From contig JAFSIQ010000010.1 of the NCBI GenBank assembly GCA_017439675.1, positions 163,699 to 227,698 of the forward strand: a stretch of 64,000 bases of DNA, in the 5' to 3' direction. The notes beneath the pieces are model-generated. The model saw only the letters and a program-made list of their open reading frames with translations. It did no database searches and was not told the origin of the DNA. Positions 2,857-28,154 of this stretch are shown here, piece after piece; within the stretch, counting starts at the first letter, position 1, and every line of letters begins with the position of its first letter. Origin of the DNA: Lachnospiraceae bacterium (GTDB lineage: Bacteria > Bacillota > Clostridia > Lachnospirales > Lachnospiraceae). The translations under genes and the position numbers were made by a program.

Positions 2857-4071
2857 ATGAAAGATTTAGCGTATAGAAAATTTTTGAAATATGGAATTAC
2901 AGTAGCACTGTTGATTTTGGCAGTGGTGAATTTTGAGGAAGTGATTGGTTTTGGACAGACTTTATTATCTGTTGCATATCCATTAACGTTAGGATGTATC
3001 ATTGCATATATTGTGAACATTTTAATGGTACGTTTGGAAAAGATTTATTTTCCAAAGAGTAATAAGAAGATTGTTACGAAGACAAGACGAGGTGTTTGTA
3101 TTGCATTGTCCTTTACGTTGTTGGTAATGATTGTGATTTTTGTATTATATTTGGTGATTCCACAAGTAGTGGATTGCTTTGTGGTTATCTCAAAGGACGT
3201 ACCGGTTGTCCTAGAAAATATATGGAACTTTATAATTCAAAATTCAGAAAAGCTACCGGCGTTACAGGAACAACTAACCAGTATGGATATTGATTGGGGC
3301 GGACTCATCAATAAGTTGACCTCAGGTGTTATGTCTGGAACAAAGGGGATTCTCGCTTCGGCAACTAGTATTGTAGGTTCTATTTTTGGTGCGGTTGCCA
3401 ATGTGGTTGTGGGAATTATTTTCAGCATTTATGTACTTGCATGTAAAGAAGAGGTTAGTCAGAGAATCAATCGTGTTATGCAGGCATTTATGAAGGAGGA
3501 TATATACAAGAGAACCATATATGTATTGGATGTTGTTCACAATAGTTTTTCTAATTTCTTTGTTGGACAGGCAACAGAAGCAGTTATTTTAGGAAGCTTA
3601 TGTGCGCTTGGGATGTGGATATTCCATTTGCCGTATGCAGGACCGATTGGTGCTCTAGTGGGTCTTACTGCATTAATCCCAGTGTTTGGTGGATATATTG
3701 GTGCAGTACTTGGCGCATTTATGATATTGACCGTGGACCCGAAATTAGCATTGGTATTTATCATTTATTTATTGATTTTGCAGCAGCTAGAAGGTAACTT
3801 GATTTATCCGAAGGTGGTCGGTTCTTCCATTGGCTTGCCGGGTATCTGGGTACTCGCAGCTATTATGATTGGTAGTGGATTAGGCGGTGTAGTAGGAATG
3901 TTGGTAGGTGTTCCGATTTCAGCTGCCGCTTACAAGCTTCTTCGAGAAGCAACTGTAAAACGATTGCAGGAGAAGGGAATTGTTGTGCCAACGAAAGAGA
4001 AGAAGATAGAGGCGGTTAAGCAAAAGCCAGTAATAAATGTTGGAAAGAATAAGAATACAAGAAAGAAATAG
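2857..4071 (+). CDS. AI-2E family transporter (PerM/YtvI-like permease)
   Basis: The protein has 404 residues with hydrophobic segments near the N-terminus (about 13-55), at 75-98, around 150-180 and as a cluster from about 205 to 360. This is the arrangement of the AI-2E/PerM family of eight-helix membrane proteins. The charged tail (about 370-404) is lysine-rich and cytoplasmic. The family name comes from autoinducer-2 export, but many members export other substrates or move sodium, so the substrate is open. The start follows GGAGG. It appears monocistronic, with a terminator at 4095-4141. A paralogue lies at 40107-41360. Confidence 0.85.
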   Translation: MKDLAYRKFLKYGITVALLILAVVNFEEVIGFGQTLLSVAYPLTLGCIIAYIVNILMVRLEKIYFPKSNKKIVTKTRRGVCIALSFTLLVMIVIFVLYLVIPQVVDCFVVISKDVPVVLENIWNFIIQNSEKLPALQEQLTSMDIDWGGLINKLTSGVMSGTKGILASATSIVGSIFGAVANVVVGIIFSIYVLACKEEVSQRINRVMQAFMKEDIYKRTIYVLDVVHNSFSNFFVGQATEAVILGSLCALGMWIFHLPYAGPIGALVGLTALIPVFGGYIGAVLGAFMILTVDPKLALVFIIYLLILQQLEGNLIYPKVVGSSIGLPGIWVLAAIMIGSGLGGVVGMLVGVPISAAAYKLLREATVKRLQEKGIVVPTKEKKIEAVKQKPVINVGKNKNTRKK

Positions 4072-25031: not shown

Positions 25032-25940
25032 ATGGAGACAATGGCAGATTTTGAAAAGGAGTTAACAAACTCATTTCGTGTGATTAAAACAGGAGAACGT
25101 GTGAAAGGAATGATTGTGGATATCAATGATGAGGTGGTAACCCTAGATTTGGGTTATTATGCACCGGGTGTAATACCTTTGACTGAGCTTTCTGATGATC
25201 CGGATTTTTCGGCTATGCGAGATTTGAAAATAGGAGAGGATATTGAAGCAATTGTGATTCAGACAGACGACGGAAAGGGAAATGTGGAATTATCCTTAAA
25301 GGAAGCAAATGAGATTACTGCATGGGAGAAGTTAAGAGTAATGCAGGAAGAAGAAACCGTTGTTACCGTTCGGGTGAAGGAATCTGTGAATGGTGGTGTC
25401 ATTGGCTACGTCGAGGGAATGCGTGCATTTATTCCAGCATCACAATTGGCATTGACCTTTGTAGAAAATACAGAGGATTATATTGGTCAAGATGTAGATG
25501 TCAAGGTTATTACGGCAGACGAGGATGCTAAGAAATTGGTTCTCTCTGCAAAAGCGGTGTTAAAGGAGAGAGAAGCTGAACATGATAGAGCCAAGATGGC
25601 AATGATTGTACCAGGTTCTATTTTCGAAGGAACCGTGGAATCGCTTATGCCATATGGTGCATTTGTTGTTATGGATAATGGGTTAACTGGACTTGTTCAC
25701 ATTTCTAAGATTTGCATGAAACGAATCAGCAAACCGTCTGAGGTACTAAAGGTTGGACAGAAGGTAAAGGTTAAGGTATTAGAAGTTAGGGATGGTAAGA
25801 TTAGCTTGAGTATTCGGGATGTGGAAACCAACACCTCGGATATTGTGATGGATGAAATAGAAACCTTTGACTATGAATGTGAAGAGGTTCCAAACAATCC
25901 TTTTGGGGCGTTGTTGGCTGGAATTAAGATTGAGGAATAA
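25032..25940 (+). CDS. S1 RNA-binding domain protein (RpsA-like)
   Basis: 302 residues with three S1-type OB folds: about 18-90 (VKGMIVDINDEVVTLDLGY), 105-172 (VVTVRVKESVNGGVIGYVEGMRAFIPASQL) and 190-260 (IFEGTVESLMPYGAFVVMDNGLTGLVHIS). It resembles the short ribosomal protein S1 homologues of low-GC Gram-positives, which bind RNA but are not always ribosomal. The third domain is the most canonical. The ATG at 25032 follows AAAGGAG by ten bases. A terminator lies at 25955. Confidence 0.85.
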   Translation: METMADFEKELTNSFRVIKTGERVKGMIVDINDEVVTLDLGYYAPGVIPLTELSDDPDFSAMRDLKIGEDIEAIVIQTDDGKGNVELSLKEANEITAWEKLRVMQEEETVVTVRVKESVNGGVIGYVEGMRAFIPASQLALTFVENTEDYIGQDVDVKVITADEDAKKLVLSAKAVLKEREAEHDRAKMAMIVPGSIFEGTVESLMPYGAFVVMDNGLTGLVHISKICMKRISKPSEVLKVGQKVKVKVLEVRDGKISLSIRDVETNTSDIVMDEIETFDYECEEVPNNPFGALLAGIKIEE

Positions 25941-25954
25941 TGAGTAGAGTTGAT

Positions 25955-25992
25955 AGACACTCTGGCTTTGGTAAAGCTGGGGTGTCTTTTTA
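25955..25992 (+). terminator. Rho-independent terminator after the S1-domain gene
   Basis: AGACAC (25955-25960) pairs with GTGTCT (25982-25987), with further pairing of GGCTT and AAGCT inside, followed by TTTTT. Confidence 0.75.
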
Positions 25993-26090
25993 TGTTATGA
26001 GTGAGCCGATAGGTTTTGTGCTATGTATCAGACTAACAAGTGTTATAGATATTTATTGGTATTAAAGTACGCAAAGCGTGCAAAATTGTC

Positions 26091-26119
26091 TTGCGTGCTT
26101 GATTATAATGATATATAAT
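26091..26119 (+). promoter_or_regulatory. Promoter of the Rpn-type nuclease gene
   Basis: TTGCGT at 26091-26096 and TATAAT at 26114-26119 are 17 bases apart. The block TTATAATGATATATA (26104-26118) and the following ATATACACGCAAATGGTG (26131-26148) recur, with two or fewer changes each, upstream of the HTH-GNAT gene at 30663-30688. Confidence 0.6.
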
Positions 26120-26210
26120 CTATACAATAAATATACACGCAAATGGTGCACAAACAAAAGAAAAGGGGTTGCGTTGTAGAAGGGATTTTAATATAATAGG
26201 GAGGAAGCAT

Positions 26211-27068
26211 ATGACAAAAGTGAAGAGAACAGTTGAGAAAACCGTGGATGAACTACGTCCTTTTGATGACACATTTATGCAGGTGCTTACAGAGGACAAA
26301 GGGTTTTGTGAGGAAATGCTACGGGTGGTTATGGATAATCCGAATTTGAAGGTTGTTCGCAATCTGCCCCAGAAACATCTTCATAATATTGATACTCGTT
26401 CGGTTACAGTAGATGTGTTGTGTGAGGACGAACAAGGGATACAATTTAGTGTAGAGATACAGAAAGAGGATAATGATGACCACCAGAGACGAGTTCGGTA
26501 TAACGGAGCCTGTATACAGGTTCGAACGTCGGTGAAAGGTAGCACATTTGGAGAATTGCCAGATGTATATATGATATATATTACGGAGAAGGATTTTCTG
26601 AAGAAAAGTAAGACAATATATCATGTAGATAGAGTGTTATCTGAGACTGGAGAGGTTGTAGACAATGGATATTATGAAATATACGTCAATGGAGAGATTG
26701 ATGATGGAACTACCTTGGCAGAATATTTAAAACTGCTCAAGAGCGAGAATGCGGAATACAATGAGAAGTTTCCGCGTACCAGTAATATAATTCGATATTA
26801 TAAGTTAGGAGAGGGACGAAAGCAGATGTGTAAGGTTGTAGATGAATATGCAAAAGATTATGCAGAAGAATATGCAAAAGATTGTGTATATTCAAATTTA
26901 ATTCAATTAGTATGTAAGAAGCTGGAAAAAGGAAAATCTATTTCTGTGATTGCGGATGAATTAGAGGAAACAGAAGAAAATATTAGAAGAATTGTAAGTG
27001 TTGCTAAGAAATATGAACCGGAATATGATGTTAAGGCTATTTGTGAGGAGTTATTGTATTCGGAGTGA
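26211..27068 (+). CDS. Rpn/PD-(D/E)XK nuclease family protein
   Basis: 285 residues. The N-terminal two thirds has the PD-(D/E)XK core of Rpn (recombination-promoting nuclease) proteins, also annotated as PDDEXK transposase-like: FDDTFMQVLTEDKGFCEEML, then VDVLCEDEQGIQFSVEIQKED with the D...ExQ catalytic residues. The C-terminus is helical with a short repeat (EYAKDYAEEYAKDC). Rpn proteins nick DNA and have been linked to phage defence in E. coli; the role here is unknown. The ATG at 26211 follows GGGAGG. It is not bordered by inverted repeats, so it is not an insertion sequence. Confidence 0.8.
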   Translation: MTKVKRTVEKTVDELRPFDDTFMQVLTEDKGFCEEMLRVVMDNPNLKVVRNLPQKHLHNIDTRSVTVDVLCEDEQGIQFSVEIQKEDNDDHQRRVRYNGACIQVRTSVKGSTFGELPDVYMIYITEKDFLKKSKTIYHVDRVLSETGEVVDNGYYEIYVNGEIDDGTTLAEYLKLLKSENAEYNEKFPRTSNIIRYYKLGEGRKQMCKVVDEYAKDYAEEYAKDCVYSNLIQLVCKKLEKGKSISVIADELEETEENIRRIVSVAKKYEPEYDVKAICEELLYSE

Positions 27069-27076
27069 AGATTTCA

Positions 27077-27105
27077 TTGACACTGTATCCAATATGAAAT
27101 ATAAT
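27077..27105 (+). promoter_or_regulatory. Perfect consensus sigma-A promoter of the type III TA remnant
   Basis: TTGACA (27077-27082), a 17-base spacer and TATAAT (27100-27105) match consensus exactly. It lies 8 bases after the Rpn gene and drives a short RNA that ends at a terminator at 27171-27195. No other exact consensus promoter was found in the window. Confidence 0.8.
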
Positions 27106-27110
27106 AACCG

Positions 27111-27195
27111 CATAGAATATGGTATTCTATAATAGAGGTTACGAAGCCTACCAAAATCGTTATAATAGGAAACAGGTAAAGCCTGTTTTTTCTTT
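27111..27195 (+). ncRNA. Candidate type III antitoxin RNA with about 1.5 repeat units
   Basis: The transcript predicted from the consensus promoter is about 80 nt. It contains a hairpin (ATAGAAT / ATTCTAT), then TATAATAG at 27128 and again at 27161, 33 bases apart, enclosing an AGG...CCT helix element (about 27136-27149). The order promoter, repeat RNA, intrinsic terminator, toxin gene is the type III toxin-antitoxin layout, in which repeated RNA units of about 33-45 nt bind the toxin. Normal systems have two to six units; here one full and one partial unit remain. Assignment depends on the downstream toxin fragment. Confidence 0.55.
27171..27195 (+). terminator. Intrinsic terminator between antitoxin RNA and toxin fragment
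   Basis: AACAGG and CCTGTT pair around TAAAG and are followed by TTTTTC. In type III systems a leaky terminator here sets the ratio of antitoxin RNA to toxin mRNA. Confidence 0.85.
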
Positions 27196-27277
27196 ATTTC
27201 TTATTCTTTGAAGTGATAGTAGATTATCTTTAAGTATCCACATTATTTTAATTTATATTTTGTTAGGAGAAGTGCGT

Positions 27278-27418
27278 ATGATGAGATGGGTTATTATTTC
27301 AGAAAATTATCTTTCGTATTTGAGAAGTGTAGAGCCCCACATTCCGAATTCTGAATATGGTAAATATAAGTTTAAACCATTCTTTGGTGTGTTGTTTGAG
27401 ACGGATGATTTTTGTTAA
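27278..27418 (+). pseudogene. Truncated ToxN/AbiQ-family toxin gene (type III TA)
   Basis: The ATG at 27278 has AGGAG eight bases upstream and opens 46 codons before TAA at 27416. The peptide (WVIISENYLSYLRSVEPHIPNSEYG, then KPFFGVLFETDD) reads like the first third of ToxN/AbiQ-family endoribonucleases, which are about 160-200 residues long and continue past this point with a conserved (Y)YVxQxSHP-type strand. No such continuation is found in any frame up to 27483, so the 3-prime part appears lost rather than merely frameshifted. The product is probably inactive. The intact ribosome site and promoter suggest recent decay. Recognition is from memory of the family. Confidence 0.6.
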
Positions 27419-27483
27419 AAATGACAGACAAATTTTATTCATCCTTACGATGAAAGGTTTTCATATTTTCACTTTACAATTTA

Positions 27484-27530
27484 CCCCACAGCACATATAA
27501 TAAGCGATAGTGTGCTGTGGGGCATTTTTA
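27484..27530. terminator. Bidirectional terminator before the four-gene oxidoreductase operon
   Basis: CCCCACAGCAC (27484-27494) pairs perfectly with GTGCTGTGGGG (27512-27522), followed by CATTTTTATTTTT. The gene-free stretch 27419-27581 otherwise shows nothing notable. Confidence 0.85.
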
Positions 27531-27581
27531 TTTTTAGCATTACATACCCTACACCAAAGAAATAGTTAAGGAGTAAGTATC

Positions 27582-28154
27582 GTGAAAAACACAGTAGAAA
27601 TCAGATGGCATGGCCGCGGTGGCCAAGGTGCGAAGTCTGCTGCTTTGATGTTGGCAGATGCAGCATTTATGACAGGTAAATATGTACAGGGTTTCCCAGA
27701 GTACGGTCCAGAGCGAATGGGTGCGCCAATTACAGCGTACAACCGAATTAGTGATACACAGATTCGCGTGCATTCCAACATTTATGACCCAGATTATGTA
27801 GTTGTAGTAGATGAAACCTTGTTGGAGAGCGTAGATGTGACAAAGGGATTGAATCCAGAAGGTGCAATCGTAATTAACACAACCAAGAGTGTGGATGAGG
27901 TAAAGCCATTCCTTAAGGGATATACTGGTGGTGTATATACCATCGATGCAAGAAGAATTTCGGAGGAAGCGCTTGGCAAGTATTTCCCGAATTCACCAAT
28001 GCTTGCAGCCATTGTTGCAATCAGCAAGGTAATGACAAAGGAAGAGTTCTTCCGTGAGATGGAAAGCTCATATAGACACAAATTTGCGAAGAAGCCAGAG
28101 GTTATTGATGGTAATCTTAAGGCATTACATATGGCATATGAGGAGGTGGAGTAA
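27582..28154 (+). CDS. porC: Pyruvate-type 2-oxoacid:ferredoxin oxidoreductase, gamma subunit
   Basis: 190 residues with the gamma-subunit signature near the start (EIRWHGRGGQGAKSAALMLADAA) and EYGPERMGAP at about 46. It starts with GTG at 27582, after AAGGAG. It is the first gene of the operon gamma-delta-alpha-beta, the order of archaeal-type four-subunit POR and VOR enzymes. The gamma subunit helps bind coenzyme A and assemble the complex. The substrate is most often pyruvate for this order, but branched-chain oxoacids are possible. Confidence 0.9.
   Translation: MKNTVEIRWHGRGGQGAKSAALMLADAAFMTGKYVQGFPEYGPERMGAPITAYNRISDTQIRVHSNIYDPDYVVVVDETLLESVDVTKGLNPEGAIVINTTKSVDEVKPFLKGYTGGVYTIDARRISEEALGKYFPNSPMLAAIVAISKVMTKEEFFREMESSYRHKFAKKPEVIDGNLKALHMAYEEVE

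Follow-up and report, generated by a model that had tools for sequence, protein, structure and literature searches.

Organization of the locus

The locus lies between a gene for an S1-domain protein and the promoter region of the operon for 2-oxoacid:ferredoxin oxidoreductase (POR), its downstream neighbour, in a stretch of 64,000 nucleotides of a Lachnospiraceae bacterium that we analysed as a whole and refer to as the window. An extra stretch of ~ 1.5 kb at this position consists of a PD-(D/E)XK nuclease family gene and the remnant of a toxIN module (Table 1). Elsewhere in the same genome, two neighbouring segments match parts of the nuclease family gene and perhaps represent one broken copy. 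Downstream of it, a promoter, an antitoxin RNA, a terminator, a ribosome site and a toxin ORF follow one another in the order of type III toxin-antitoxin systems, as the first-pass annotation of this DNA had stated, and each of these parts was found in the sequence.

Table 1. Features of the toxIN remnant and its surroundings (window coordinates).
Feature	Position	Strand	Evidence
Extra stretch between the S1-domain gene and the POR promoter region	25941..27420		absent from two genomes of the genus (L027 = G008, L028 = G003)
PD-(D/E)XK nuclease family gene, immediately 5' of the toxIN promoter	26211..27068	+	PF12784, E = 3.2e-10
Antitoxin RNA promoter, TTGACA-17-TATAAT, 12/12	27077..27105	+	promoter scan; TTGACA-17-TATAAT also precedes the L054 array
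Leader hairpin, ATAGAATATGGTATTCTAT, immediately 5' of the ToxI unit	27112..27130	+	stem and loop count over loci of this antitoxin type
Single complete ToxI unit, TATAATAG on either side	27127..27168	+	model R2, 54.1 bits; covariation, 22 units
Intrinsic terminator, antitoxin/toxin interval	27167..27191	+	terminator scan; similar hairpin in the same place in L053 and L054 (sequence)
toxN remnant, 5' 46 codons of a ToxN/AbiQ toxin gene	27278..27418	+	PF13958; ribosome site 27265-27269; ends at the deletion junction
Deletion junction, toxN/conserved POR upstream region	27413..27423		similarity endpoints

The antitoxin promoter, annotated as an exact consensus, proved to be one. Only two such 12/12 promoters occurred in the 64 kb, the second on the minus strand at 25504, compared with 0.03 on average over 30 simulations under a first-order Markov model; at a loose threshold of 9 of 12 positions, promoter-like sites were not commoner than expected from shuffles (8 vs 7.9). 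The terminator scan likewise returned the proposed intrinsic terminator upstream of the toxin start, among three terminator-like sites (two of them overlapping) in the 2 kb where 0.7 were expected. The gap of 86 nt between the terminator and the start codon is longer than in the relatives set out alongside it. The ribosome site (AGGAG) precedes the ATG at 27278, and the ORF closes with TAA at 27416-27418, so that both the ribosome site and the 46 codons were as annotated.

Of 14 loci with this type of antitoxin, a set that excludes L065 and L066 because they nearly duplicate L056 and L060, ten had a leader hairpin with at least 7 pairs and a loop of at most 8, compared with 13% of 3000 random 32-mers from the window. 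These limits (loop of 8, 7 pairs) were set after a first test with any loop size, which was not telling, as 44% of random 32-mers reached 6 pairs.

The toxN stub

The 46-residue peptide matched the ToxN_toxin profile PF13958 above the Pfam cut-off (36.9 bits, cut-off 25; E = 5.1e-9) over profile positions 1-43 of 159. It also matched the PADLOC AbiQ model (E = 7.3e-4), and its top two matches in the PDB were solved ToxN chains, 2xd0 (E = 0.0019) and 7d8o (E = 0.0043). Judged by these similarities, the ORF represents the beginning of a ToxN/AbiQ toxin gene, as the first-pass annotation had proposed; the portion given there as the first third is about the first quarter, 46 of ~ 175 residues. The truncation noted at that stage was also borne out, the stub ending at approximately the counterpart of residue 46 of ToxN-Pa.

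The active-site side chains described for ToxN-Pa are those of Tyr29, Lys33, Thr52, Ser53 and Lys55 (PMC5086642). In the alignment with solved ToxN, the stub retains the counterparts of Tyr29 and Lys33 and stops before those of Thr52, Ser53 and Lys55; it thus lacks three of the five published residues and the complete toxin that characterizes the ToxIN family. Because it ends before these three, the stub is predicted to be inactive, with neither toxicity nor RNA processing to be expected from it. Its start codon and ribosome site are kept, so that translation of the stub may continue. We found no second PF13958 match in the window's genome, a draft that is 70% complete, which leaves room for a partner toxin elsewhere in it.

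A conserved 46-residue protein was considered and found unsupported, as the stub query matched its own genome only among 299 family genomes (E ≤ 0.001). PF13958 itself was present in 13 of 26 genomes of the genus, and 5 of the 17 matches covered less than three quarters of the profile (G000, G001, G004, G006, G018). Partial ToxN loci are therefore not rare in the genus, and the remnant in the window is an ordinary one. We also observed by eye, at loci L036-L051 of the same genus, at least four other antitoxin repeat types preceding ToxN genes.

The ToxI unit

The short RNA had been annotated as carrying a repeat spaced by 33 bp. Indeed, TATAATAG occurs twice, at 27128-27135 and 27161-27168, and the 33 bp between the copies equal the array period of the intact relatives, which is 33 nt with 34 or 35 across some variant units. 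The description of the antitoxin as barely 1.5 units can be refined, since the two copies are the boundaries of one complete pseudoknot unit. No direct repeats of at least 9 bases were reported at the antitoxin; only 8 bases recur. Within the unit, stem 1 (AGG/CCT) pairs 27136-27138 with 27147-27149, and stem 2 (ACGA/TCGT) pairs 27141-27144 with 27157-27160. The pattern can be written as AGG-UU-ACGA-AG-CCU-(7 nt)-UCGU, and the window unit forms all seven pairs.

Comparison of units from different loci indicates that the ToxI unit is an H-type pseudoknot. Over 22 distinct units, which were hand-picked in favour of clear cases with the badly fitting third unit of L059 retained, and among which related units count several times, the proposed pairing was formed in 98.7% of cells, compared with at most 49.6% for slid versions. 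Units that seem degenerate were compensated, with ACAG/CUGU, CUG/CAG and ACGG/CCGU, as well as AUAG/CUAU in L067. Double changes were present in five of the seven pairs, a number reached by 3 of 500 shuffles; neither the 16 double-changed cells (3.1 in shuffles) nor the covariation score of 0.389 was reached by any of the 500. The count of further pair types was a weak measure, the observed number being reached by 40 of the 500 shuffles. RNA model R2, trained on 11 units with the window, L053, L054 and all toxin-less loci excluded, found the window unit at 54.1 bits, with the next match at 16.2.

These results also bear on whether an AT-rich intergenic region might have acquired a promoter, a repeat and an ORF by accident. 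The unremarkable number of loose promoter-like sites and the lack of reported longer direct repeats would be compatible with such an origin, but the excess of exact promoters, the covariation and the R2 score all argue against it. With the PF13958 match and the intact relatives described below in addition, we rejected chance, whose likelihood we regard as next to negligible.

In a scan of the whole window against Rfam, only a tRNA reached the gathering score and the ToxI unit was unmatched; at E values up to 10, the four matches within 26900-27600 were all unrelated. With RNA model R1, the unit was detected in 3 of 26 genomes of the genus, including its own, and, with stricter filters that may miss some, in 1 of 397 family genomes, again its own.

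Relatives carrying the unit

Scanning genome_contigs (84,980 species by its description) with a pattern of the unit core, which has to be near-perfect and thus favours recent remnants, we obtained 15 stretches besides the window. The loci are not all independent, as L056/L065 and L060/L066 are near-identical pairs. The stub matched nine of the 15 with 50-69% identity over 36-46 residues. Six (L052, L056, L057, L058, L059, L060) combine tandem units with a full-length ToxN; their matching units, two or three in number, are spaced by 33-34 nt, and by eye a terminator-like hairpin is present. The toxN of L063 is intact over the 65 codons covered, that of L066 is split between frames, and the contigs of L054 and L065 end in or just after the array. 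Four stretches (L055, L061, L062, L064) carry units without any match to the ToxN queries in the covered DNA.

In the genus, a search with the window DNA gave short antitoxin matches in two genomes, G003 and G008. One G008 contig (C235) bears three consecutive units followed by a complete toxN, a second array of G008 (C271) lies at a contig end, and the G003 contig stops shortly behind its third unit. An intact homologous locus with tandem repeats upstream, whose absence from all relatives would have spoken against the annotation, is thus available; the other outcome named there as refuting, a lack of any match of the peptide to the ToxN/AbiQ family, likewise did not occur. As to the intact gene and additional repeats expected at the same site in related strains, intact relatives with more repeats do exist, in the form of the six loci elsewhere, whereas none was found at the window's own site.

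Several other arrangements were observed among these loci. A second ToxN stub was seen in L053 (6092-6208, oriented), where it follows ToxI units, measures 38 codons and lies between other genes; later toxin codons are present beyond the cut. The region 5600-6600 of L062 contains two arrays in direct succession. The first is a ToxI array of the present type that lacks a toxin; the second, downstream, is type III-like, differs in its repeat and is accompanied by a terminator-like hairpin and a 171-codon open frame (stop to stop). By eye the two arrays share nearly the same promoter sequence. L067 (2840-3510), on a 159 kb viral contig from IMG/VR, is a relative of this toxIN with three units by eye and a ToxN 56% identical to that of L056. 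The L056-type ToxN matched 33 plasmid records, all below 60% identity.

Genomic site and deletion junction

Besides the window, the S1-domain gene was present in G008 (L027, 92% identical protein) and G003 (L003 and L028, 87%) among the 31 loci compared. In all three of these loci it directly abuts the POR promoter region, which represents the empty site. From this distribution we infer that the stretch was gained in the window's lineage rather than lost in both G003 and G008. At least L056 and L027, both from G008, are on different contigs, so the toxIN there is not at the window's site. No intact toxIN was found at that site, and the ancestor was not seen.

At the 3' end of the stub, the similarity to toxN stops at 27412-27415, and similarity to relatives within the genus starts at 27423 for G003 and between 27429 and 27450 for most others. 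Some part of a 521-bp query was matched in 20 of 26 genomes of the genus, its own included, and in 19 of them upstream of POR. Because most of the genus shares similarity from ~ 27423 onwards, the stub terminates at a junction and not at a point mutation.

A junction of this kind might also arise if the draft assembly had joined a partial toxIN to the POR operon by mistake. The draft consists of 50 contigs at 70% completeness, and two relatives (L054, L065) have a contig end within or close behind an array of this kind. However, the contig in question is 227 kb long, and the two outer neighbours are adjacent in two genomes of the genus, which makes a misassembly very unlikely.

The POR promoter region

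Downstream of the junction, the POR operon promoter (TTTACA-17-TATAAT, within 27473-27530) has its -10 box inside a long hairpin with arms at 27484-27495 and 27511-27522, followed by T-rich sequence. From 20 sources (the window and 19 loci) we obtained 18 promoter regions, all but L013 and L021; L009 was dropped as identical to L008 there, and in all 17 folded regions pairing extended across the -10 box, with 10-17 pairs, differing arm sequences and z from - 2.8 to - 8.7 relative to simple letter shuffles. By eye, a T-rich tract follows the stem in 14 of the 17 (none in L010, L016 or L019). The hairpin is possibly a terminator of the upstream gene with the promoter of the next operon inside it, so that transcripts starting inside would escape termination. 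Three further promoter-like -10 boxes, at 3007, 32865 and 60695, lie in stems of 13, 11 and 18 pairs; counting stems of 8 or more pairs, the window contains seven promoters inside stems on its two strands compared with 2.8 per strand in letter shuffles, which is no clear excess. An operator-like ATGAAA-N3-TTTCAT element at 27437-27465, upstream of the POR promoter, is shared by most of the 18 regions, with the exception of L010 and L019.

Interpretation of the locus

Based on the toxin homology, the structure of the unit, the order of the parts and the empty site in relatives, we conclude with a probability of about 0.93 that the locus is a decayed remnant of a ToxIN-family type III toxin-antitoxin module beside the PD-(D/E)XK gene, between the S1-domain gene and the POR operon. 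The ToxIN family (ToxIN-Pa, ToxIN-Bt, AbiQ) has the same order of promoter, repeat RNA, terminator and toxin; the locus shares with it the ToxN/AbiQ homology at the toxin start (PF13958), a Rho-independent terminator upstream of the toxin and an H-type pseudoknot unit, of 33 nt compared with the 36, 34 and 35 nt given for published units (PMC5086642). The CptIN family was set aside by unit length alone, CptI units being described as longer than those of ToxIN (PMC5086642). The locus differs from working ToxIN members in having 46 toxin codons, predicted to be inactive, and one full unit upstream of the terminator where its relatives have a tandem array; the single unit identifies it as a remnant. 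The six intact relatives, which originate from uncultured Lachnospiraceae, an Agathobacter sp., an Oscillospiraceae and a record titled Synergistes, have the same unit and pseudoknot, a leader hairpin in five of six (not in L059) and a ToxN start 50-64% identical to the stub, and differ by their two or three matching units and complete ToxN.

As the relatives show, the working form has a promoter from which an RNA is made that comprises some three pseudoknot units of 33 nt, in most cases preceded by a leader hairpin; a terminator permits a little read-through for the expression of ToxN. According to published work on ToxIN, ToxN acts as an endoribonuclease: it cleaves the RNA into its units, which in turn keep the enzyme inactive. 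After insertion of the stretch, a deletion reaching the POR promoter region would have removed toxN after codon 46, and the array would have been reduced to one unit, most likely by recombination between units. We infer this order of events and the attendant loss of activity. The antitoxin RNA is probably still transcribed, folded and terminated. As a toxin-antitoxin pair the locus most likely does not work at all.

Antitoxin RNA without a toxin

It is also conceivable that the ToxI unit has been kept as an antitoxin-only RNA, neutralizing related ToxN proteins that arrive on phages or plasmids or blunting post-segregational killing (anti-addiction). The promoter, leader hairpin, whole unit and terminator are all retained in the window, L053 keeps its units with toxN cut at 38 codons, and four of the 15 stretches have no ToxN match. 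In total, 7 of 14 judgeable loci (the window, L053, L055, L061, L062, L064 and L066, out of the 15 stretches and the window without L054 and L065, where contigs end) have no intact toxin beside a near-perfect unit, with L063 taken as intact on its 65 codons and L060/L066 being a near-identical pair. Nevertheless, the toxin has to be lost before the antitoxin, so antitoxin-only leftovers are expected without selection, and the near-perfect core demanded by the pattern scan favours recent ones. Moreover, the ORF upstream of the unit in L055 ends 16 nt before it, too close for the unit to have its own promoter, and the third unit of L062 is broken (sequence).

The viral contig L067, with its full-length relative of ToxN, indicates that an incoming ToxN of this type exists; on the other hand, the unit-core pattern was not found in viral_contigs, and the L056-type ToxN had no match among phages. 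The published work also points both ways. The 1.8 (antiQ) and 2.5 (ToxI-Pa) repeats reported as needed for neutralization (PMC5086642) speak against full activity of a single unit, whereas the single-repeat ToxI clones implied to be antitoxic (PMC3475682) speak for it. In the account of phage PhiTE, 1.5 pseudo-ToxI repeats expand to block ToxN (PMC3475682). The PhiTE pseudo-ToxI resembles the window in being a ToxI-like RNA segment without a toxin and with little over one repeat, but its 1.5 repeats are phased such that no whole unit is formed until expansion (PMC3475682), whereas the window unit is whole, bacterial and follows toxin loss. Among the matches listed, no title dealt with orphan ToxI in bacteria, which is not proof of absence. 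Taken together, we consider retention for such a role unlikely, and the same doubt applies to the idea that single-unit ToxI loci provide cheap immunity against ToxN-bearing phages and plasmids, seeding expanded arrays when needed.

The reading of the locus as a decayed remnant makes it a member of an already known family and an ordinary genomic fossil, although a function for which the leftover antitoxin RNA is retained is possible. A type III remnant with a mere 46-codon ORF was detectable by reading the raw sequence, and its analysis revealed a type of ToxI unit, 33 nt long and supported by covariation, that went unreported in the Rfam scans performed here. It also provides a small set of antitoxin-only loci in which persistence of ToxI by selection after toxin loss could be tested.
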